Assembly: GCA_944388995.1 (NCBI GenBank)
Contig: CALXKN010000018.1
Coordinates: 1 to 38,253 of the forward strand
DNA: 38,253 nucleotides
Reading direction: 5' to 3'
Source of the DNA: an uncultured Spirochaetota bacterium
GTDB taxonomy: Bacteria; Spirochaetota; Spirochaetia; JAFGXN01
The position numbers and the translations under genes are program-made. The notes under the pieces were generated by a model, which made no database searches, was not told the DNA's origin, and was given only the letters and a program-made list of their open reading frames with translations. Positions 20,001-31,984 of the stretch are shown here, piece after piece; position 1 is the first letter of the stretch; every line of letters starts with the position of its first letter.

Positions 20001-22088
20001 TTACTCCTCTTCGTCGGCGCTCATGCGGGCGCGGCCTTCTTCGATAACCGCCTCGACCTGCTTTCCGGTAATCGGACTGTAATGGGAAAAGTCGATTTCG
20101 TAAGAGCCGGTTCCCGACGTCAGCGCCTTCAGTTCGATGGCGTAACGCTGAATTTCGCTTTGAGGCACTTCGGCGTCGATTTGGGTAATTCCGCCGCCGA
20201 TTGATTCCTGCCCCTGAATGCGGGCCCGTTTGGACGACAGATTGGAGAGGATATCACCGATGTAGGCTTCGTCGGCAAAGACGTGCATCAGCATAATCGG
20301 TTCCAGCATCACCGCGGCGCCGTTTTTCATTGCTTCGCGCAGACAGCCGCGGGCGGCCAGCTTAAACGCCATTTCGGACGAATCGACGGGGTGTTCTTTG
20401 CCGTCGTAAATCGTCGCCTTCAAATCGACAATCGGATAGCCGGCCAAAAATCCCCGTTCCATCGCCTCCAGAAGTCCCTTTTCGATTCCGGGCATATAAT
20501 TTTTTCCGACGGCGCCGCCTTTGATTTCGTTGACGAATTCGAAATTCATTCCCCGTTCCAACGGTTCGAAGCGCATGACGACACGGGCATACTGACCGTG
20601 GCCGCCGGACTGCTTTTTGTGCGTGTATTCGGCTTCACATGGCTTGGTAATCGCTTCCCGATAGGCGATTTTCGGAATTTTGGTTTCATAAGCGATTTTG
20701 TTTTTATCGAGAGCGTTTTCCAAAATCATATTGAGGTGCATTTCGTCCATTGCGGAAATCACCGTCTCCTTCGTTTCGGCATTGTAACGCATGGTGAAGG
20801 TTAAATCCTGCTGTCCCGCTTTTTGTAGGAATTCGTTGAGTTTGTCTTCGTCTTTTTTGTCTTTTGCGGTGACGGCGACCGAGTAGGTCGGATGCGGCAG
20901 TCGCAGATTGTGGTAGCGGTACGGAAAACCGGCTTCGGCCAGCGTGTGGTTGGTGGCAATTCCGTCAATTTTCGACAGCGCGCCGATGGCTCCGGCCGAG
21001 AGCAAGTCCATTTCAATCAGCTTTTTCCCCTGTACGTTGTAGAGTTTTCCGACTTTGATTTTGGCGCCGGTATTGAGGTCGGTCAGCTCCGCATCGGGAT
21101 GGATGACACCGCTCATCATTTTGATGTAGGAGAGCTTGCCGGCGAATTTATCGAATTTGGTTTTGATGACCATCAGCGACACCGGAGCGTCGGAGGATAT
21201 GGTCAGGTCGACCTTTTGACCTTCGCCGTCGATGCCTTTTTCACCGACCGCATCGGGAGAAGGGGCCACAATCTCCAAAAAGTTCAGAAATGAAGCGATC
21301 CCGTTGTTCAGGACGGCGCTTCCGCACATCACCGGAACCACGCGCGTGCTGCGGATACCGAGTTTCAGTCCTTTCCGGATATCATCTTCGCTCAGCGTTC
21401 CTTCATTGAAATATTTTTCAATCAGATCGTCGGCTCCCTCGGCGGCCAATTCGATCATCTGTTCGCGCATTTCGGCAACCAAGTCCTTCATCTCTTCGGG
21501 AACGGGTGAAGCGACGTCTTTTTTGCTTGGATCGTGCACTAAGTACGCTTTTTCTTCTATCAGATTGACGATTCCTTTAAAATCCTTTCCGGAGCCGATA
21601 GGAATGGTTACCGGGACGAAGTTTTTTTTGAATTTGGTACGCAAGTCTTCGATGACGGCAAAGTAGTCGGCGTTGTCGATGTCCATTTTATTGATGAAGA
21701 CGGCGCGCGGTTTTTCCCGCTGATTGAGCCGCCGCCACAGTTTCAGCGTTTCGATTTGAACGCCGCTTTTGGCGTCAATGACGACAAGAGCCGATTCGCA
21801 TGCTCTTAAACCGACAATCACTTCGCCGACAAAACCGGCGGCTCCCGGCGTATCGAGAAAGTTCATTTTGTGACGGTTCCACATCAAGTGCGTAAACGAA
21901 GTGTAAATCGAAAAACGGTGGCTGATCTCCTCTTCGGTGAAATCACTCATCGTTTTGCCGCTTTCCACCGATTCGGCTTTTGCGATGACGTCGGCGTTGA
22001 ACAGCATCTGTTCCAAAAGAGTCGTCTTTCCCGTTCCGCCGTGGCCGACAATGGCGACATTTCTCAATTCTTTGGTGGCAAATCCCAT
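20001..22088 (-). CDS. EF-G-like GTPase lacking canonical G motifs
   Basis: A 695-residue paralogue of elongation factor G with all five EF-G domains. It resembles the EF-G-like (EF-G-2 of Thermus type) group rather than the translocase. G1 reads GHGGTGKT (15-22) instead of AHxDxGKT. G3 reads DTPGAAGF (79-86), so the catalytic histidine of DTPGH is alanine. The RGITI switch motif is replaced by a sequence near RFSIYTS (58-64). NKMD is kept. Domain IV starts with GGHGQYARV, as in true EF-G. GTP binding is likely; fast hydrolysis is doubtful. The start at 22088 has AAAGGAG upstream. It has its own promoter 131 nt downstream of the other EF-G gene. Confidence 0.9.
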   Translation of the reverse strand: MGFATKELRNVAIVGHGGTGKTTLLEQMLFNADVIAKAESVESGKTMSDFTEEEISHRFSIYTSFTHLMWNRHKMNFLDTPGAAGFVGEVIVGLRACESALVVIDAKSGVQIETLKLWRRLNQREKPRAVFINKMDIDNADYFAVIEDLRTKFKKNFVPVTIPIGSGKDFKGIVNLIEEKAYLVHDPSKKDVASPVPEEMKDLVAEMREQMIELAAEGADDLIEKYFNEGTLSEDDIRKGLKLGIRSTRVVPVMCGSAVLNNGIASFLNFLEIVAPSPDAVGEKGIDGEGQKVDLTISSDAPVSLMVIKTKFDKFAGKLSYIKMMSGVIHPDAELTDLNTGAKIKVGKLYNVQGKKLIEMDLLSAGAIGALSKIDGIATNHTLAEAGFPYRYHNLRLPHPTYSVAVTAKDKKDEDKLNEFLQKAGQQDLTFTMRYNAETKETVISAMDEMHLNMILENALDKNKIAYETKIPKIAYREAITKPCEAEYTHKKQSGGHGQYARVVMRFEPLERGMNFEFVNEIKGGAVGKNYMPGIEKGLLEAMERGFLAGYPIVDLKATIYDGKEHPVDSSEMAFKLAARGCLREAMKNGAAVMLEPIMLMHVFADEAYIGDILSNLSSKRARIQGQESIGGGITQIDAEVPQSEIQRYAIELKALTSGTGSYEIDFSHYSPITGKQVEAVIEEGRARMSADEEE

Positions 22089-22141
22089 ATTCCGCTCCTT
22101 TGCCGCATCGGTCTGAGTGCTCCGCCGCGGCTCCGTTATTT

Positions 22142-22170
22142 ATTTTCAGTCCGGGACGGGGAAAAGTCAA
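22142..22170 (-). promoter_or_regulatory. Promoter of the EF-G-like gene
   Basis: On the minus strand TTGACT (22170-22165), a 17-nt spacer and GAAAAT (22147-22142). The -35 box and the following six bases are identical to those of the symporter promoter at 8485. The remainder of the 22089-22219 gap holds no gene. Confidence 0.55.
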
Positions 22171-22219
22171 GCGGTTTTTTTTTAAGAGGGGCGGCTCGGA
22201 CGGTTTGCTGAAAGAGCGG

Positions 22220-24244
22220 CTACGGCCGTTTGCGGTAGTGGGAAAACTCCATTCCGAATGTGCCGCGTCCTTGAGTGAGGCTTCGCAGAACAGTTGAGTA
22301 GCCGAACATATTCACCAGCGCGTTTTCGCCGCTGATGCATTCGTATCCCGGATGTGAATCGATATGGTTGATGATTCCGCCTTTTGAGGTCAGCGATCCG
22401 ATAACTTCGCCGACGCGTTCGGTTGGCACAATGACGTCGATTTTCATAATCGGCTCCATGATGGCCGGAGAAGCGCTGCGGCAGGCGTTGTCGAATGCCT
22501 GCACGGCGCACGCTTCAAACGCAAACGGAGTCGAAAACTCTTCGCTGAAGTCTATTTCGGTAACGACCGCCTTAATATCAATGCACGGATAACCGAAACT
22601 GATGCCCGATTGGAATGCGTTTTCAATGCCGTTTTTGACGGCAGCTGCAATTTCTTCGGGAATCGAGCGGACGGACGCTTCACAGACGTATTCGTTGCCT
22701 TTGCCCGGGTTGGGGGTGACGGTCAGCGTCAATCCCGCGCGGTTTTCCTTGCCTGCGATCATGCGGTTGAAGGTTTCCGTGTGCGAGACGGTTTTCTCTA
22801 TCGATTCACGGTAAGAGACCTGAGGATTGCCGATGTTGGCTGCCGCCTTGTATTCGTTCAAAAGCCGTGTTGTAATGACGTCGAGGTGAAGTTCGCCCAT
22901 TCCGGAAATCAGCAGCTGTCCCGTTTCGGGGTTTTCTTTTACGATAAAAGTAGGATCTTCGGTCTGCAGTGCCTCAAGAGCCTTGCGCAGTTTATCGCCG
23001 TCGCTTGCCGTTTTCGGTTCGATAGCGACGGAAATCACCGGTTCGGGGAACGACGGCGGCTCAAGCAGAAGTTTTTTTCCTTCTCCGGCAAGCGTATCGC
23101 CCGTTTGCGAAATTTTACAGCCGATGAGCACGCCGATGTCGCCCGCTTCCAGCGCTTCCACCGCTTCCGATTTGTTGGCGTGCATCCGCAGAATGCGGGT
23201 AATGCGCTCTTTTTGATTTTTGTTGACATTGATCGGAGCCGTTCCTTTTTTGATAATGCCGCTGTAAACGCGGACAAAAGAGAGAAATCCGGCCTCGCGG
23301 TCGTTTTGAATCTTGAAAATGAGAGCAAGCGGCGGTCCTTTCGGATCGCAGGGAACGGTTTCTTCGCTCTCTTTTTTTGGATTGAATGCCGTCGGAGCGG
23401 GAACGTCGGTCGGACACGGAAGATAGTCGACAATCGCGTCTAAAAGCGGCTGAGTACCGATGTTTTTCAGCGACGAACCGGCGAGAATCGGCAGAATTTT
23501 CCTCTCTGCAACGCCTTTCCGAATGACCTCACGGATCAAATCGGACGGCGGTTCGCTGCCTTCCAAAATAATTTCCATCAGTTCATCGGAAAGTTCCGTC
23601 AGTCGGTCGAAGAGTTTTTCCCGAGCGGCTGAGGCCTCTTTTGCCAGCGCTTCGCGGATAACGCTTTCGGTTACGGTTTGCCCCTGGTCTTCTTTTGAAA
23701 AATGAAGCTCTTTCATCTTCAATAAATCGATGACGCCTTCAAATTCCGACTCTTTCCCGATCGGCAGCTGCAGCACAGCCGTTGAAATTCCGAATTTCTC
23801 TTCAATTTGGCGGACGACACCGGCAAAATCGGCTCCCATCCTGTCCATTTTATTGACAAATGCAATCCGCGGAACGCCGTACTGTTCGGCCTGCCTCCAA
23901 ACCGTCTCCGATTGCGGCTCGACGCCGCCGACCGCGCAAAAAATGCCGACGGCTCCGTCCAGAACCCGCAGCGACCGCTGCACTTCGGCGGTAAAATCGA
24001 CGTGTCCGGGCGTGTCGATGATGTTGATTTGACAATTTCTCCAGTAACAGGTGGTGGCAGCCGACGTAATGGTGATGCCGCGTTCCTGTTCCTGTTCCAT
24101 CCAGTCCATGGTCGCCTGTCCGTCATCGACTTCTCCGATTTTATGGCTTTTGCCCGTGTAAAAAAGTATGCGCTCCGTTGTGGTGGTTTTTCCCGCGTCG
24201 ACGTGGGCAATAATTCCGATATTTCTCAGTTTTGACAAATCCAT
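22220..24244 (-). CDS. fusA: Elongation factor G, EF-G2 type
   Basis: Translational GTPase with intact motifs: AHVDAGKT (13-20), RGITI (55-59), DTPGH (77-81) and NKMD (about 133). It is 674 residues, slightly shorter than the main EF-G. At the start of domain IV the usual GGxGQYxxV segment is missing and is replaced by [11 protein letters not shown], which argues against the standard translocase and for the second EF-G of spirochaetes. In Borrelia burgdorferi that protein acts in ribosome recycling, so this role is inferred here. The frame opens at TTG 24262, but ATG 24244 has GGAG 6 nt upstream and begins with the usual EF-G sequence. The canonical EF-G1 is probably elsewhere in the genome. 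Confidence 0.9.
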
Positions 24245-24260
24245 GGCTGACTCCGTCTTC

Positions 24261-24289
24261 AATTTATCACAAAAATCGGCTTTTGTCGA
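24261..24289 (-). promoter_or_regulatory. Possible fusA promoter
   Basis: TCGACA (24289-24284), a 17-nt spacer and TAAATT (24266-24261) on the minus strand, then GGAG before ATG 24244. The match is moderate. Confidence 0.35.
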
Positions 24290-24401
24290 GATTCCGCCTC
24301 CGCCGCTCCATTGAAATTCACATTCACTACTGGTATTTTTTTCCGTTTTTCTGTAAAATCAAAAAAGGGGAAACCCGTCAAATCATTCAAAGGAGAACGA
24401 T

Positions 24402-25103
24402 ATGGTTTATTCAGCGGAAGTGGAACATATGTGTCCATTGGCCAAGGGAACTTATCACGGTCCGGCTCCCATTCCCGAAGAGGGAAAGTGGGTTCAGGCG
24501 AAAGAAGTCAAGGATATTTCCGGCTTCACACACGGTGTCGGTTGGTGCGCGCCTCAGCAGGGTGCGTGTAAGCTGACCCTGAATATCAAAGACGGAATCA
24601 TTCAGGAAGCGTTGGTGGAAACCATCGGCTGTTCGGGAATGACCCATTCCGCAGCAATGGCTTCCGAAATTTTGATCGGAAAAACGATTTTGGAAGCGCT
24701 GAACACCGATTTGGTTTGCGATGCGATTAACACTGCGATGAGGGAACTTTTCCTGCAGATCGTTTACGGCCGCAGTCAATCGGCTTTCAGCGAAGGCGGT
24801 TTGGTTATCGGCGCTTCGTTGGAAGACTTGGGGAAGGGACTGCGCTCTCAGGTGGGAACGATGTTCGCGACGCTGAAGAAAGGTCCCCGTTACCTGGAAA
24901 TGGCGGAAGGTTACGTCGAAAAAGTGGCGGTCGACAAAGACGGCGCGATTATCGGTTACAAGTTTATCCACTTCGGAAAGATGATGGAATTCATCAAGAA
25001 AGGCGACGATCCCGCGACGGCGATGGAAAAGGCCCGCGGTTCTTACGGACGGACAACCGAAGAGCAGGGCGCGGTGAAGTTGATTGATCCGCGGCATGAA
25101 TAG
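24402..25103 (+). CDS. NifU/IscU-like iron-sulfur scaffold protein
   Basis: A 233-residue cytoplasmic protein related to the U-type Fe-S assembly scaffold. The best match to IscU is VETIGCSGMTHSAAMASEILIGKTI, broken here as ETIGCSGM (74-80) and HSAAMASE (82-89), which corresponds to the scaffold's second cysteine helix. Other cysteines are 11, 49, 56 and 106. The N-terminal 45 residues and the last 60 are not found in ordinary IscU. The start has AGGAG 6 nt upstream; TAAAAT at 24354-24359 is a possible -10 box. It is followed after 10 nt by the GGGtGRT gene. Such pairs are found together in anaerobes, but their target is not known to me. Confidence 0.85.
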   Translation: MVYSAEVEHMCPLAKGTYHGPAPIPEEGKWVQAKEVKDISGFTHGVGWCAPQQGACKLTLNIKDGIIQEALVETIGCSGMTHSAAMASEILIGKTILEALNTDLVCDAINTAMRELFLQIVYGRSQSAFSEGGLVIGASLEDLGKGLRSQVGTMFATLKKGPRYLEMAEGYVEKVAVDKDGAIIGYKFIHFGKMMEFIKKGDDPATAMEKARGSYGRTTEEQGAVKLIDPRHE

Positions 25104-25113
25104 GAGGGAAGTC

Positions 25114-26124
25114 ATGGCAGAGAAAATCACATTTGAAAGCTACGAACGCCGTATCGATAAAATCAAAAAGGTTCTGAAAGAGTACGGTATTAACAGTATC
25201 GAAGAGGCAAAAGAAATCTGCGACAACGCCGGAATCAATCCGTATAAGACCGTCGAAGAGACGCAGCCGATTTGTTTCGAAAATGCCAAATGGGCTTACG
25301 TGGTCGGTGCGGCGATTGCGATTAAAAAAGGGTGCACGGTTGCTGCCGACGCCGCCGAAGCCATCGGAATCGGTTTGCAGGCGTTTTGTATTCCCGGTTC
25401 GGTTGCCGAAGACCGCAAAGTCGGTTTGGGTCACGGTAACCTGGCTGCCCGCCTTTTGCGTGAAGAAACGAAGTGCTTCGCCTTTTTAGCAGGACATGAA
25501 TCGTTTGCGGCGGCCGAAGGGGCGATTAAAATTGCCGCCAAAGCCGACAAAGTCCGCAAAGAGCCGCTGCGCTGTATCCTGAACGGTCTCGGAAAAGACG
25601 CCGCTCAAATCATCAGCCGCATCAACGGATTCACTTACGTTCAAACAAAATTCGATTACTTCACCGGCGAGCTGAAAATCGTCAAGGAAATTCCGTATTC
25701 AAACGGAGAGCGGGCGAAAGTCAAATGCTACGGCGTTGACGACGTGCGCGAAGGTGTGGCGGTCATGTGGCACGAAGGCGTTGATGTTTCCATTACCGGA
25801 AACTCCACCAACCCGACCCGCTTCCAGCACCCGGTTGCCGGCACTTACAAAAAAGAGTGTGTCGAAAAAGGCAAAAAATACTTCTCCGTGGCTTCCGGCG
25901 GCGGTACGGGACGGACGCTCCACCCGGATAACATGGCGGCCGGTCCCGCGTCTTACGGTATGACCGACACCATGGGACGGATGCACTCCGACGCTCAGTT
26001 TGCCGGCTCCTCTTCGGTTCCGGCTCACGTCGAGATGATGGGCTTCCTCGGCATCGGCAACAACCCGATGGTCGGGGCGACGGTGGCTGTTGCTGTCGAC
26101 GTGGCTCAGGCACTGGCAAAATAA
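25114..26124 (+). CDS. GGGtGRT family protein
   Basis: A 336-residue protein of a family named after the motif GGGTGRT, seen here at 262-268 within ASGGGTGRTLHPDNMAAGP. No enzymatic activity is established to my knowledge. The glycine loop and the conserved acidic and His residues after it suggest nucleotide or cofactor binding (inference). There is no signal peptide or membrane segment. The frame is open from 25084, but ATG 25114 has TAGGAGGG upstream. The gene is cotranscribed with the scaffold gene and ends at a strong terminator. A second, truncated copy of its last 92 bases lies at 28811-28902. Confidence 0.92.
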   Translation: MAEKITFESYERRIDKIKKVLKEYGINSIEEAKEICDNAGINPYKTVEETQPICFENAKWAYVVGAAIAIKKGCTVAADAAEAIGIGLQAFCIPGSVAEDRKVGLGHGNLAARLLREETKCFAFLAGHESFAAAEGAIKIAAKADKVRKEPLRCILNGLGKDAAQIISRINGFTYVQTKFDYFTGELKIVKEIPYSNGERAKVKCYGVDDVREGVAVMWHEGVDVSITGNSTNPTRFQHPVAGTYKKECVEKGKKYFSVASGGGTGRTLHPDNMAAGPASYGMTDTMGRMHSDAQFAGSSSVPAHVEMMGFLGIGNNPMVGATVAVAVDVAQALAK

Positions 26125-26157
26125 GCGGCCGCTTTCGGCGGACGTTTTGCCGATTCG

Positions 26158-26202
26158 GGCTGCCTTTCGGAAAGGAATCTCCTTCCGGAGGCAGCCTTTT
26201 TT
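26158..26202 (+). terminator. Terminator of the scaffold-GGGtGRT operon
   Basis: Long hairpin with arms beginning GGCTGCCT and ending AGGCAGCC (26158-26175 with 26181-26196), a few mismatches in the middle, loop AATCT, followed by six T (26197-26202). Confidence 0.88.
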
Positions 26203-26242
26203 GTGTAAATTAACTCATTTAAAATGAATTAATTGATTTGTG

Positions 26243-26270
26243 TTGATTTTATATGTAGACAGTGTATAAT
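26243..26270 (+). promoter_or_regulatory. Promoter of the InlB/BspA repeat lipoprotein
   Basis: TTGATT (26243-26248), 16-nt spacer, perfect TATAAT (26265-26270). GGAGG at 26291-26295 precedes the ATG. The gene thus has its own promoter after the terminator. Confidence 0.65.
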
Positions 26271-26299
26271 GTAAACATTCGTTTTAAATCGGAGGCATT

Positions 26300-28354
26300 A
26301 TGAAATTGGGGAAAATAATTATTTTTTCAGTTTTTCTTTTAATTGGATGTGACAAAGAGTCGCCATTTCAAATGCTGACTGTTTCGTTTGACAGTCAGGG
26401 CGGTTCGGCAGTAGCGGCGCAAACAGTTCCTTTTGGGACGCTTTTAAAGGAACCGGAAGTTCCCGAAAAGAAGGGTGCTGTTTTCGAAGGATGGTTTACC
26501 GATAAAACAAAAGGCGATAAATGGGTGTTTTTGATTCCTGTTTCGACAGATATGACTTTGTATGCCCGGTGGAGTACCGGAATTCGTGTTTATTTTGACA
26601 GCCAGGGAGGAACTCCTGTCGACGAAACCCGCATCAATGCTGGACAACCGATCCCCCGTCCCGAAAATCCGGAAAGGGAAGGTTATACTTTTAACGGCTG
26701 GTATACGCAGCCGTTGGGAGGAGCATTGTGGGATTTTTCCGTTCCTGCCGGCGCCTCGATGACATTATATGCTCACTGGTTGCAGGGAACGTTGGTTGTT
26801 TTTGACAGCATGGGAGGCAGTGAAATTGCGGCGGTTCCCGTTAATAAGGGATTTCCGGTTGACCGTCCGATTGATCCGCAACGAATCGGATATGTTTTTC
26901 TCGGTTGGTATACCCGAGCGGAAGAGGGAGTGTTATGGGATTTTTCTGTTGCCGTAGGACGATCGATGACTTTGTATGCATATTGGGAAAAGGAAATTTA
27001 TACTGTTTCGTTTGACAGTAACGGCGGTCTCGAAAACTATTCTTCCCAAACTACAGATTACGAAACGCTTCTTTCGGAACCGATGCCGCAACCGTCGATA
27101 GCCGGCGGTCAGTTTTTGGGGTGGTTTACATCTCCCGAAGGAGGTGTTCGATGGGATTTCGCTTCATCATATGTTTCTGCTGATATGACTCTTTATGCAC
27201 AGTATCGGTTCGGTAATTGTACTATTTCTTTTGATTTACAGGGTGGAAACGGAACGGCTCCGTTACCGCAGACTGTTTCTTACGGTAGCTTAATTAAAGA
27301 ACCGCAGGTTCCGACAAAGGACGGGTACGCATTCGGAGGCTGGTATACGGAACCTCTCGGCGGAGTCAGATGGGATTTTACAATAGGGGTTTCTTCCGAT
27401 ATGATTTTGTATGCACAGTGGGGAATCCCGTTTGCACGGGCATTGACACAGGTAAAAGAAACGAGTGCCCGAAAACTGGATATGAAAATAGTCGGACCTC
27501 TCAATAAAGAGAATTTAAGTCAATTGGCAACAGAGATAAAAGCCAAAACTTCAACCGAATTTCGCCTGGATCTTTCCGGGGTAATCGGGCTGATTGAGGT
27601 TGGTAATAATTGTTTTGATAAATGTACGAATTTGAAAGAAATTCGCTTGCCCGATACTGTGGAGATTATCGGAAACTATGCATTTCGAGAAACCGGAATC
27701 GAAAAAATTTATTTCCCGAAATCTTTAAAAAAATTGGGAGATGCTGTATATGAAAAATGTTTGGGTTTAACGCGTGTCGAAATCCCCGGAGGTATCGAAC
27801 AAATCGGAGTGAATCTCTTTTATAATTGTACCGGAATTTTAACGGCTACATTGCCGGAAGGAATGTATGAAATTCCCAAAACCATGTTTCAGTATTGCAC
27901 GGCTTTAATGACGGTGAATATTCCCGAGAGTGTACGGATTATCCGTACAAGTGCATTTGCCAATTGCAAGTCCGTTACATCGTTTGTATTGCCCGATTTA
28001 CTTCTCTATATTGAAAGATCGGCTTTCAGTGATTGTGCGTTTGAATCGATTTCAGTTCCTGACTCCACATACGAGATTGGCGAATTTACATTTAACGGCA
28101 ATGAAAATTTAAAAACAGTTCGGTTGGGTTCCGGTTTATTGAAAATAGGAGAGGGAGCATTTCTTAATTGTCCGAAACTGACCCGCATGACTGTCGATGC
28201 GTTGTATCCGCCGGAATTGGGATATAAAAATTATTTGCCTTTTGATAAAGATAATGAGAATCTTTTCTTTTTTGTTCCAGAAGAAGCGTTGTCACGTTAT
28301 CAAACAGGGAATCGATGGACATATTACAATATAAAAATCAATGAACTAAATTAA
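26300..28354 (+). CDS. Repeat lipoprotein: five InlB-type repeats plus BspA-like LRR
   Basis: A 684-residue predicted surface lipoprotein. The signal ends in FLLIGC with Cys17. Five Listeria-Bacteroides (InlB B) repeats follow, each opening with a strand and F-D-x-x-G-G, with GWYT or GWFT in the middle and ending TLYA-x-W. Residues about 400-660 are LRR_5 units of the BspA kind, for example LPDTVEIIGNYAF and SAFANCKS. Such proteins commonly mediate adhesion to host or bacterial surfaces. Base composition is visibly richer in A and T than in neighbouring genes, a sign of acquisition. It has its own promoter and lies between two copies of GGGtGRT sequence. Confidence 0.9.
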   Translation: MKLGKIIIFSVFLLIGCDKESPFQMLTVSFDSQGGSAVAAQTVPFGTLLKEPEVPEKKGAVFEGWFTDKTKGDKWVFLIPVSTDMTLYARWSTGIRVYFDSQGGTPVDETRINAGQPIPRPENPEREGYTFNGWYTQPLGGALWDFSVPAGASMTLYAHWLQGTLVVFDSMGGSEIAAVPVNKGFPVDRPIDPQRIGYVFLGWYTRAEEGVLWDFSVAVGRSMTLYAYWEKEIYTVSFDSNGGLENYSSQTTDYETLLSEPMPQPSIAGGQFLGWFTSPEGGVRWDFASSYVSADMTLYAQYRFGNCTISFDLQGGNGTAPLPQTVSYGSLIKEPQVPTKDGYAFGGWYTEPLGGVRWDFTIGVSSDMILYAQWGIPFARALTQVKETSARKLDMKIVGPLNKENLSQLATEIKAKTSTEFRLDLSGVIGLIEVGNNCFDKCTNLKEIRLPDTVEIIGNYAFRETGIEKIYFPKSLKKLGDAVYEKCLGLTRVEIPGGIEQIGVNLFYNCTGILTATLPEGMYEIPKTMFQYCTALMTVNIPESVRIIRTSAFANCKSVTSFVLPDLLLYIERSAFSDCAFESISVPDSTYEIGEFTFNGNENLKTVRLGSGLLKIGEGAFLNCPKLTRMTVDALYPPELGYKNYLPFDKDNENLFFFVPEEALSRYQTGNRWTYYNIKINELN
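26378..27421 (+). repeat. Five tandem InlB-type repeat units
   Basis: Protein-level repeats at residues 27-91, 96-160, 164-229, 234-302 and 308-374 of the lipoprotein, about 65-70 residues each. The DNA copies differ considerably, so this is an old expansion, not a recent slippage. Confidence 0.85.
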
Positions 28355-28596
28355 ATTTTTTAAAATGCCGCTTTGTTTTCGGGATGTCGGGTTTTTGCGT
28401 TAAAACGGCAACAGGGGAATATCCCGCAAGGAAAAAGATAGGAAAGCGGTGTGAGCGACGCGGGATGAGGACGAACTTGTATCTTAGCGGTTACTCCCTT
28501 TTGCCTGAAAAACAGCTGATTGACTTAAAAAGAGTTCGATCTTTTTCCGCAGTCAAAAAGCATTCGCATGGATGTCTACCTCCCGCAGCTTTCGAT
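28355..28596. other. Gap with no supported gene
   Basis: About 240 bases between the lipoprotein and the acyltransferase fragment. A short open frame crosses it (28384-28695, plus strand) but has no ribosome-binding site, no protein-like composition and runs into the fragment. Nothing else is seen. Confidence 0.5.
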
Positions 28597-28637
28597 TTTC
28601 ACAGTCTGAAACAAAGTGTTTCACAGTCTGAAACACT
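28597..28637. repeat. 17-bp direct repeat with hairpin
   Basis: The same 17 bases (TTTCACAGTCTGAAACA) occur at 28597-28613 and 28619-28635, 22 nt apart. Each is a small inverted repeat, and the second extends to a 9-bp stem (28615-28623 with 28629-28637) around CAGTC. Only two copies, so not a CRISPR array. Confidence 0.7.
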
Positions 28638-28816
28638 CTGCCGGTTGCCGGCGGCTGTTTTTCGGGTCAGCAGACGCCGCAGCGGTCTTTCGTAAAACCG
28701 TTCGACCAAAGCCGCCGCGACAATGCTGCCGATAAAAAGCAAAACCGCATATCCGACAGCTCCGGCGGTCGTTGCTTCCCCCGATTCTTTTATATATTTA
28801 TAGTAAATACAGATGA
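28599..28816 (-). pseudogene. 3' fragment of an acyltransferase gene
   Basis: C-terminal part of a membrane acyltransferase, closely related to the intact gene at 29869-30963. Shared protein sequence includes ICIYYKYI and then TTAGAVGYAVLLFIGSIVA and VERFYERP. At DNA level 28684-28771 matches 29900-29987 with two differences, both silent; the short linker after KYI and the last residues differ. The fragment begins abruptly at AGATGA (28811-28816), where it joins the GGGtGRT fragment. No start codon of its own is credible. Confidence 0.85.
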
Positions 28817-28902
28817 TGGGCTTCCTCGGCATCGGAAACAACCCGATGGTTGGGGCGACGGTTGCTGTCGCCGTCGACGTGGCACAGGCACTGGCGAAAT
28901 AA
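28811..28902 (+). pseudogene. 3' fragment of a GGGtGRT gene
   Basis: Ninety-two bases matching 26033-26124 without gaps, including the stop codon. Seven bases differ, and all seven are silent third-position changes in Gly, Val and Ala codons. The rest of the gene is missing; the fragment is fused at AGATGA to the opposing acyltransferase fragment. Confidence 0.92.
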
Positions 28903-28911
28903 GCAGTTTCG

Positions 28912-28942
28912 AAAAAAAGACCTCCGAAAGGAGGTCTTTTTT
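28912..28942. terminator. Bidirectional terminator with GAAA loop
   Basis: Symmetric hairpin: A-run, GACCTCC, loop GAAA (28926-28929), GGAGGTC, T-run. It can end transcription from both sides: the GGGtGRT fragment on plus and the response regulator-GGDEF gene on minus, whose stop is 2 nt away. Confidence 0.88.
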
Positions 28943-28943
28943 G

Positions 28944-29828
28944 TTATTCCGAATCGCGTTTGCAGACGACTGTTTGGTTTTTTCCGTTGTTCTTAGCGCG
29001 GTACAGCGCTGCGTCGGCGTCATGAATCAATTCCTTAACAGTTGTTTCAGGCTGCGGAACGGCGGTTTTTATGCCGATGCTGACCGTTAAGGGCTTGTCT
29101 CCGCCTTGGAACGCGGCGGTCACAGCGGCGCTGAATTTTTGCGCCAATGAAAAAACCTCTTCTTCTTCGATGCCGGCAGTCAGAATGGCAAATTCATCGC
29201 CGCCGATACGGCAAAAAAGCGCTTTTATTCCGGAAAAAGTTGTGCGAATGGATTCCGCTACAGTTGTCAAAGCGCGGTCGCCGACTTCATGACCGTAACG
29301 GTCGTTGTGCTCTTTGAAAGAATCAATATCAATCGCTAGAATTCCGATTCGGCTGCTGTTTTCGACAGCGGCTTAAAGAATCAACGGAACGGAGGCGTCC
29401 CAGCCACGGCGATTAAGAAGCGATGTTAACGGATCCTGAGAAGAAATTTCTTTCCATTTTCGTTGTTGTTCGCAGCGCCGTAAAGCCGCACGAATGCGCG
29501 CTAAAAGTTCGCCTGTATGAAACGGTTTGACGATGTAGTCGTCAGCTCCGGCGTCCAAGCCTCTGATGATGTCTTCCGGTTCGCTTTTGGCAGATAAAAA
29601 TAAAACGGGTGAGGAAATCATCTTTCGGACTTGACTTAAAACTTCGAAGCCGCTGATTCGAGGAATCATAATGTCGAGGAGGATACAATCCCAGCTTCCG
29701 TTGAGCGCTTCTCTGACGGCACTGACGCCGTCGTGAACGGACACCGTTTCATAACCTTCCCGGTGCAGCTCCAATTCCAATAAACGCGTCAGGCGGATTT
29801 CGTCATCGATAATCAAAATTCGTTTCAT
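28944..29828 (-). pseudogene. Response regulator-GGDEF protein interrupted by TAA
   Basis: One continuous frame of 294 sense positions with a single TAA at codon 152 (29375-29373). The receiver domain is intact: acidic pair Asp9/Asp10, phosphoacceptor Asp52 and Lys101. The second half is a diguanylate cyclase domain with RIGGDEFAIL intact and a usual end (DADAALYRAKNNGKN). The stop falls in the first helices of the GGDEF domain, after SLLNRRGWD, so the cell should make only a 151-residue receiver. No start for the second half is convincing. ATG 29828 has no Shine-Dalgarno sequence, but TATAAT ends 8 nt before it. The alternative start is GTG 29834. A sequencing error at one base is possible. 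Confidence 0.85.
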
Positions 29829-29836
29829 GCTCACAA

Positions 29837-29842
29837 ATTATA
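29837..29842 (-). promoter_or_regulatory. -10 box of the response regulator gene
   Basis: Perfect TATAAT on the minus strand, ending 8 nt before ATG 29828. No clear -35 box is seen. The transcript would be leaderless or nearly so. Confidence 0.45.
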
Positions 29843-29868
29843 TTTCGCGGAAAAACATTAAACTCCCG

Positions 29869-30963
29869 TTAAAAACGTTTGCTCAGTATTTTTCTGACAG
29901 GTCTTTCGTAAAATCGTTCGACCAAAGCCGCCGCGACAATGCTGCCGATAAAAAGCAAAACCGCATATCCGACGGCTCCGGCGGTCGTGGGGGACATCTG
30001 TCTGATGTATTTATAGTAAATACAGATGAACGGATAGTGAATTAAATAGAGCGGATAGGAAATTTGCCCGAGAAATTTGACCGGAACCCGCAGAAACGAT
30101 TCGCTTTCTTTGCGCGAAGAGGCAATCAGCACAATGAGCGGAAAGAGAATCAGAATGCAGGAAATTTCATAAAGGGCGTTCATCCAAAGCGTCTGCGGAC
30201 CGCCGATGCGCGGCATTAGAAGTGCAATCGAAAGAAGAACGGTTGAAATCAGAAACGGACACGGAATCTTCCAATTCGGCCGCTTGATTCGAGCCAGCAA
30301 CAGTCCGGCCGTAAACGGAAATAGCAGCCGGGCAAATCCGGCGTAAAGGCTGTAAGGGGTCAGCTGCCATCCGCCGATAACGTCGCCGTTAGGGTTCGTC
30401 AGCAGGAAAACCGCCGTCACAATCCCGGCCGCGGCAGTCAGAAGAATCAGTGCCGCTTTCGGCAGATAACGGAAAATCAGCACATAAAGAAGATTGGCAA
30501 TATATTCGAAAAAGAGCGACCACTGCGGTCCGTTCAGCGGGTAGGATTCCCCCCAGCCGCGGACATCAAGTGCCGCCGGAACCGGCAGCATCAGCGCACC
30601 GAGCAGAGTCAGCAGCAGCACTCGTCCGACGGGAGCATCAGCGACTAAAGTTCCGCCGCCGAAGTAAAAGAAAATCGCTCCGATCACAGTTCCGAGAACA
30701 ACCATCGGCTGCAGACGGATGAGCCGCCGTTTGAAAAATGAACCGACACTGAGTTCGGCTGTCCTCTTATCATAAGCGTATCCGATTACAAAACCGGACA
30801 AAATGAAGAAAAAATCAACAGCCAAATAACCGTGATTGAACATTTGTGTAAAACGGTCGACGGCGTGGGCTTCGCCGATATGGTACAGCAAAACAATAAC
30901 AGCTGCCACTCCGCGTAATCCGTCTAAGGACGCGTAGTGAGACGGCGTTCCTTTCGGATTCAT
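29869..30963 (-). CDS. Membrane acyltransferase (OafA/acyltransferase 3 family)
   Basis: A 364-residue integral membrane protein with about ten helices that transfers acyl groups, usually acetyl, to cell-surface sugars. Family signs are SLDGLRGVAAVIVLLYHIG near the N-terminus with the catalytic His of LYHIG, then FFFILSGFVIGY and an RRLIRLQP segment corresponding to the conserved Arg-rich turn. The later QISYPLYLIHYPF is also typical. The start at 30963 has AGGAGAT upstream. It stands alone behind its own promoter, with no sugar-polymer genes around. A truncated relative is at 28599-28816. The acceptor is unknown. Confidence 0.9.
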   Translation of the reverse strand: MNPKGTPSHYASLDGLRGVAAVIVLLYHIGEAHAVDRFTQMFNHGYLAVDFFFILSGFVIGYAYDKRTAELSVGSFFKRRLIRLQPMVVLGTVIGAIFFYFGGGTLVADAPVGRVLLLTLLGALMLPVPAALDVRGWGESYPLNGPQWSLFFEYIANLLYVLIFRYLPKAALILLTAAAGIVTAVFLLTNPNGDVIGGWQLTPYSLYAGFARLLFPFTAGLLLARIKRPNWKIPCPFLISTVLLSIALLMPRIGGPQTLWMNALYEISCILILFPLIVLIASSRKESESFLRVPVKFLGQISYPLYLIHYPFICIYYKYIRQMSPTTAGAVGYAVLLFIGSIVAAALVERFYERPVRKILSKRF

Positions 30964-30995
30964 GACATATATCTCCTGACTGTAAATTTATGATA

Positions 30996-31024
30996 ATTAT
31001 ACATCGACGTTGTCTGTCCGGCAA
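30996..31024 (-). promoter_or_regulatory. Acyltransferase promoter
   Basis: On the minus strand TTGCCG (31024-31019), 17-nt spacer, perfect TATAAT (31001-30996). Confidence 0.6.
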
Positions 31025-31040
31025 CTTTTTTTTAAAACAG

Positions 31041-31068
31041 TTGATTTTCTTCCTGTTTCGGTTATAAT
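31041..31068 (+). promoter_or_regulatory. Promoter of the tautomerase-methylase operon
   Basis: TTGATT (31041-31046), 16-nt spacer, perfect TATAAT (31063-31068), followed by an AGGGGGA ribosome-binding site before ATG 31086. Same -35, spacer length and -10 as the promoter at 26243. Confidence 0.65.
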
Positions 31069-31085
31069 CGACTCAGGGGGAAAAA

Positions 31086-31427
31086 ATGCCTTTGATACAA
31101 CTGAAAACAACCGTACCGCTGCCGCCGGATCTGCGCGACGGCCTGACGGCCGATTTCGGAAAAATGATGGCGGACGCCGGAAAGCCGGAGGCGTTTCTGA
31201 TGATTGAGTTTGAAGAGGGCGCCGATCTGCGTTTCGGCGGTAAAAAACCGGAAAACGCCGCTCTCGTTGAGATGAAACAGGTCGGCGACCTCGGCCGCGA
31301 AACATATCTGCGCCTGACGGAAATCATCAGCCGCATTCTGAAGGAACGTCTCGGTACGCCGCCCGAATCGGTTTACATCACCTATCAGCCCGTCAGCGAC
31401 TGGGGTTGGAACGGAACGAATTTTTAG
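31086..31427 (+). CDS. MIF-like tautomerase
   Basis: A 113-residue homologue of macrophage migration inhibitory factor/D-dopachrome tautomerase. The conserved N-terminal proline directly after Met (MPLIQLKT) is the catalytic base in this family. The middle LVEMKQVG strand and the end DWGWNGTNF match the conserved MIF C-terminus. Members form trimers and act on phenylpyruvate-like keto acids; the physiological bacterial substrate is usually unknown. There is no signal peptide. It is first in an operon with a nitroreductase 8 nt downstream. A role at the host interface is possible but not supported by this sequence alone. Confidence 0.9.
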   Translation: MPLIQLKTTVPLPPDLRDGLTADFGKMMADAGKPEAFLMIEFEEGADLRFGGKKPENAALVEMKQVGDLGRETYLRLTEIISRILKERLGTPPESVYITYQPVSDWGWNGTNF

Positions 31428-31435
31428 GAAGGTTT

Positions 31436-31984
31436 ATGGATTTCAAGGAAATAGCGCAATGCCGGCGGAGTGTGCGCGGATACGATGCGCAGCGCCCCGT
31501 CGAAAAAGAAAAAATTGAGGCGTGTCTGGTTGCCGCGAGATTGGCGCCGTCGGCGTGCAATAGCCAGCCGTGGTTTTTTACCGTCTGTACCGGCGATACG
31601 GCCCGCAAACTGGCACCGCTGACGCAGGGAATGGGCATCAACGGCTGGACGGAAGAGGTGCCCGTTTTCGTCGTCATCAGTGAAGGCACAATGAATTTGT
31701 CGGCCCGCGCCGGTATGCTGTTGAAAAATAACGATTACCGTTCCATTGACCTCGGAATTGCCTGCGCTTATCTGACGGCTGAGGCGACAGAAATGGGTTT
31801 GTCTTCGTGCATCATCGGTTGGTTCCGGGAAAAAGCGGTGCGCCGACTGATCGGCTGTAAAGGAAAACCGCGTCTGATTGTCGCGCTCGGCTATCCGAAG
31901 ACCGATTCGGCGGCAGAAAAGCGAGAAAAAGCGAGAAAACCGGCGGATTCGATTATCAAATGGGTTGAACGGGAGGATTTATGA
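31436..31984 (+). CDS. Nitroreductase family flavoprotein
   Basis: A 182-residue FMN-dependent oxidoreductase, soluble and probably dimeric. The N-terminal CRRSVRGYD is the FMN phosphate-binding segment; ARLAPSACNSQPW and LGIACAYLTAEATEMGL are family-typical, as is GYPKTDS near the end. The substrate is not predictable. ATG 31436 lies 3 nt after AGGAAGG. The stop overlaps the ATG of the next gene (ATGA). The frame is open further upstream, inside the tautomerase gene, without a ribosome-binding site. Confidence 0.92.
   Translation: MDFKEIAQCRRSVRGYDAQRPVEKEKIEACLVAARLAPSACNSQPWFFTVCTGDTARKLAPLTQGMGINGWTEEVPVFVVISEGTMNLSARAGMLLKNNDYRSIDLGIACAYLTAEATEMGLSSCIIGWFREKAVRRLIGCKGKPRLIVALGYPKTDSAAEKREKARKPADSIIKWVEREDL

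Follow-up and report, generated by a model that had tools for sequence, protein, structure and literature searches.

A microhomology joint between two diverged versions of a GGGtGRT locus as the probable origin of a chimeric scar in a Spirochaetota genome

In the genome of an uncultured Spirochaetota bacterium (assembly GCA_944388995.1), the 3' ends of two opposing genes, an acyltransferase and a GGGtGRT gene, meet in a single short segment, and a full-length relative of each lies on either side. How was such a scar made, and were the two tails copied from the genes that flank them today? The stretch of DNA analysed here, called the window, comprises 38,253 nucleotides of contig CALXKN010000018.1; its source genome (1.93 Mb in 27 contigs) was compared with G001, the sole congener in the comparison.

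Reading of the sequence together with a repeat search placed the scar exactly where it had first been located, and the observation is real. Its left half is an acyltransferase 3' fragment on the minus strand (28684-28816) and its right half a GGGtGRT 3' fragment on the plus strand (28811-28904). Plus-strand positions 28684-28772 match 29900-29988, the 3' end of the full minus-strand acyltransferase gene (29869-30963; Pfam Acyl_transf_3, E 7e-34), at 98% identity; about 20 nt after 28772 are diverged, and the match then resumes through TATTTATAGTAAATACAGATGA (28795-28816). From 28811 the segment beginning AGATGATGGGC matches, up to 28904 and at 93% identity, the plus-strand 3' end of the full GGGtGRT gene (25114-26124; Pfam PF14057, E 3e-196), so that 26033-26126 and 28811-28904 form the first and second copies of a 94-bp direct repeat. 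In BLAST searches against the bacterium's own whole genome, the acyltransferase part gave an E value of 3e-42 and the GGGtGRT part 9e-34. No more copies of the scar or the acyltransferase were found in this genome beyond the three pieces. The fusion of the two gene ends, proposed in a sequence-only reading of this DNA, is thus borne out by both alignments and both Pfam families.

The two halves share exactly 6 bp, AGATGA, at the joint (28811-28816). This word occurs once in each full gene, at 26033-26038 in GGGtGRT and at 30024-30029 in the acyltransferase, and once in the scar, as that reading had also stated. When breakpoint pairs were drawn at random in the two genes, an overlap of at least 6 bp arose in 0.26% of them (P = 0.0026), which is beyond chance for a short word at a joint. 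Taken with the BLAST E values, this statistic ruled out chance resemblance. The letters around the joint contain no gaps or ambiguous bases, and the joint sequence was not found in viral contigs.

The neighbouring genes differ between the two sides. Upstream of the full GGGtGRT gene lies a NifU-like Fe-S scaffold gene (24402-25103, plus strand; Pfam NifU_N), whose protein is 100% identical in amino acids in G001. NifU was a constant neighbour of GGGtGRT in every locus listed from 80 other genomes, and the genes described below (response regulator, acyltransferase and lipoprotein) were not common to those neighbourhoods. Two EF-G-like genes adjoin on the minus strand (20001-24262). The NifU-like and GGGtGRT proteins (24402-26124) match their counterparts in Treponema/Spirochaetaceae MAGs at approximately 90-96% identity, and the EF-G-like neighbour protein only at approximately 48-55%, where comparable; a transfer of the NifU-GGGtGRT pair is possible on these identities. 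Downstream of the full GGGtGRT gene, the plus strand encodes a lipoprotein (26300-28354; Pfam Flg_new and LRR_5) that combines five Listeria-Bacteroides repeats with leucine-rich repeats of the BspA type. To the right of the scar follow a terminator-like hairpin with 13-bp arms (28913-28942), common to G001 and lying between the convergent GGGtGRT and response regulator-GGDEF (RR/GGDEF) genes, then the RR/GGDEF gene itself (28944-29834, minus strand) and the full acyltransferase. RR/GGDEF carries one in-frame TAA at a site that is open in the intact G001 copy, which could reflect a recent nonsense mutation, variation between strains or an error.

The geometry is that of a tandem duplication, in which the 3' part of the downstream unit runs directly, in direct order, into the beginning of a second unit. 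Bacterial duplications of this form are known. Those confirmed in Salmonella chemostats, and the deletions confirmed there, were bordered by short direct repeats (PMC3411829), and in engineered duplications 9-bp borders suffice (PMC11111574). The scar resembles these short-junction tandem duplications in that duplicate ends in direct order meet at a short common word, but its overlap is shorter (6 bp), its units are different alleles, and different genes lie between them.

A relative with one GGGtGRT-RR/GGDEF-acyltransferase set and no lipoprotein had been predicted to exist if the joint arose by duplication, and G001 is such a relative. At its locus (L018, contig C2), the order is one GGGtGRT gene, the common terminator, RR/GGDEF and the acyltransferase. 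The right-hand haplotype of the window (28811-29988) is therefore the one found in single copy in G001, which gives the single-copy order in a relative, from one congener only. The lipoprotein is absent from the G001 locus and has no DNA match in G001; a search of G000 (the source genome), G001 and G002 for a source of the lipoprotein interval returned distant paralogues only. G002, the only other family member compared, had no GGGtGRT match. No genome with a pure GGGtGRT-lipoprotein-acyltransferase haplotype was found, one congener having been compared.

The alleles of the two halves bear most directly on the question. Of the 94 positions in the scar's GGGtGRT tail, 7 differ from the window's full copy and 7 from G001, in both cases only at third codon positions and always synonymously. 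Random changes in this tail would be synonymous in about 25% of cases; had the five changes private to the scar arisen in a dead tail, the probability of all five being synonymous would be about 0.001. Compared to G001, the tail has also diverged further than the adjoining DNA (7/94 compared to 19/1084; Fisher P = 0.003). Because its changes are all synonymous and exceed those of the adjoining DNA, the tail most likely diverged as the end of a working gene, before it was severed. The acyltransferase tail, in contrast to the window's full gene, is identical to G001 over 117 of 117 nt (28684-28800), including TTGCTTCCCCCGATTCTTTTATA, a stretch missing from the full gene, which from 29989 has a different stretch compared to the scar and G001. 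Toward the stop codon the fragment has a divergent C-terminus (28599-28683, minus strand) with no match in G001; it ends in RPLRRLLTRK..., the full gene in RPVRKILSKRF and G001 in RPVRKMLSKRF, so that the scar matches neither. Beside the stop codon of the fragment, at 28596-28640, two near-identical 22-nt units (TTTCACAGTCTGAAACA...) fold into hairpins; an exact copy of the unit was not seen in the other loci examined. On these comparisons the halves of the scar are different alleles from the window's full genes, as far as tracts of 94 and 127 nt allow alleles to be told apart.

The earlier proposal of a tandem duplication by 6-bp homology consequently stands for the joint and the geometry but not for the copying of one sequence, since the units differ in the intervening genes and in the alleles of both tails. 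Its corollary, that two copies later lost or gained different genes between them, fits less well than a single join of two haplotypes, to which the different-allele tails conform. One could still suppose that a unit of approximately 1.2 kb, from the GGGtGRT tail to the acyltransferase tail, duplicated itself in one chromosome via AGATGA, that the lipoprotein and the nearby PDDEXK_2 DNA later took the place of the left RR/GGDEF gene, and that the tails were changed by gene conversion or drift. This history predicts the joint and its microhomology equally well, G001 would serve as its single-copy ancestor, and the scar's acyltransferase tail, being that of G001, could be the ancestral allele if the right copy changed later. 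However, beyond the same join it needs replacement of the left interval and change in both tails, at least three extra events (the left interval replaced, a new acyltransferase C-terminus and a changed right acyltransferase), and it requires the severed GGGtGRT tail and the intact one to have acquired seven differences, every one of them synonymous. We regard it as rather unlikely, and one join between haplotypes as the simplest account. A single such join accounts at once for duplicate ends in direct order, for AGATGA being present once, for the differing genes in between and for the allele differences.

We therefore consider that the scar probably arose when two diverged haplotypes of one locus were joined in a single illegitimate recombination guided by microhomology. 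The left haplotype would have read NifU-GGGtGRT-lipoprotein-acyltransferase, and the right one would be NifU-GGGtGRT-RR/GGDEF-acyltransferase. A broken end of the left haplotype, within its acyltransferase gene and perhaps beside a small AT-rich hairpin, would have annealed by its AGATGA to that word in the right haplotype's GGGtGRT gene, the six bases being common to both by chance. An out-of-register join would then set the two intervals one after the other, as a tandem duplication does, except that the copies differ. This probably happened when DNA of a relative came into the cell: ordinary homology, within GGGtGRT or upstream of it, would have joined one end, and microhomology the other, in the manner of homology-facilitated illegitimate recombination (HFIR). 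In Acinetobacter, Streptococcus pneumoniae and Pseudomonas stutzeri, HFIR integrates foreign DNA by a homologous anchor and an illegitimate joint of 3-10 bp (PMC6382021). The likeness to HFIR of competent bacteria is one of form, an illegitimate joint at a few common bases, here 6 bp between different alleles, within that range; the difference is that anchor and donor are deduced for the scar from its sequence.

Traces of exchange are present in the surrounding DNA. Divergence from G001 is uneven along the full GGGtGRT gene, with at most 4 differences per 100 nt over 22220-25419 and then 17 in 25420-25519, nearly all of them synonymous. This unevenness points to imported alleles, and the GGGtGRT locus seems to have undergone allelic exchange between lineages. 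The sharp allele changes inside the gene, at approximately 25420-25740, are compatible with the long-homology end of such an event. Positions 22220-25250 are approximately 99% identical to G001, compared to 86-94% for the rest of the window's syntenic blocks. In G001 the block 22220-31967 is on contig C2 and both of its flanks are on C3, with clean borders; this difference of contig indicates that the region of the scar is rearranged on a larger scale too.

A possible reason for the break lies in the acyltransferase gene. Its best short-loop hairpin, TGTATTTA-TAG-TAAATACA (30006-30024), abuts the breakpoint word AGATGA, and it is weaker in the allele of the scar and G001. The acyltransferase of G001 (L018, 8090-8400) has an in-frame internal deletion of approximately 260 codons, most of the gene, one end of which falls at the loop of the hairpin's counterpart, 10 bp from the joint of the scar. 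This deletion is an event independent of the scar. Hairpins with arms of at least 7 bp and a loop of 3-4 nt gave 12 hits in the 38-kb window. Two events at one hairpin, a coincidence noticed post hoc, are only suggestive of a possible fragile spot, and they give modest, testable grounds for regarding a hairpin as a break point.

On the left, approximately 100 bp from the acyltransferase fragment, the scar is adjoined by a remnant of a PD-(D/E)XK transposase/nuclease gene on the plus strand (28529-28582; 54 bp, 18 codons, KEFDLFPQSKSIRMDVYL). The remnant matches contigs C14 and C19 of the source genome and C2 of G001 at 83%, and the matching gene at locus L108 belongs to Pfam PDDEXK_2 (PF12784). 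Nucleases of the Rpn/YhgA-like PD-(D/E)XK group raise RecA-independent recombination in E. coli (PMC5350276). The resemblance to them is a family gene remnant near the scar; they belong to PF04754, whereas the remnant is an 18-codon scrap of PF12784 with no sign of a part in the event. Its position could nevertheless suggest that the two tails came separately or by a mobile element and met by accident. Against this, the halves meet at one common 6-mer and are ordered and oriented as an out-of-register join would leave them, and the 94-bp repeat that flanks them consists of homologous coding sequence and is no target duplication. We consider a separate arrival very improbable. Among the genes scanned with Pfam at the locus, there was no transposase except the 18-codon remnant, and the repeat search found no inverted-repeat pair bounding the segment. 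A transposon insertion, which would show an intact transposase, terminal inverted repeats and a short target duplication, is thus not supported by these scans.

The assembly itself could also have produced the joint, if two strains co-existing in the metagenome were misjoined in one contig. The 27 contigs probably represent a metagenome bin, the halves of the scar are different alleles, and the two acyltransferase tails have a 59-nt exact run in common, enough for a crossover by a short-k assembler. However, contamination was rated at 0.14%, the surroundings of the joint have no gap or ambiguity, and an overlap of 6 bp is far under the usual assembler k-mer. An overlap this short could not have guided an assembler, and some molecule must therefore carry the joint. 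These data make an artefact improbable.

The scar itself most likely has no function. At the joint, ATGATG is left in frame and heads an ORF of 29 residues from the GGGtGRT tail (28813-28902), hydrophobic in character (MMGFLGIGNNPMVGATVAVAVDVAQALAK). That the scar made a small gene that is now kept, translated and under selection seems highly doubtful from its sequence. All changes in the ORF compared to the full gene are synonymous, a pattern that prior descent explains, and no ribosome-binding site before it was evident by eye; for both reasons a kept micro-gene is unlikely. The event also left two direct repeats, of 94 bp (26033/28811) and 89 bp (28684/29900); by their geometry, recombination within either pair would bring back one of the two parental gene orders.

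Taken together, the scar is clearly a fossil of an ordinary, known kind of bacterial rearrangement and not of a new system. It is a natural, readable record of how a 6-bp slip can link two versions of a locus in one chromosome. Both accessory gene sets can thereby be kept side by side, in what is otherwise ordinary genome evolution.
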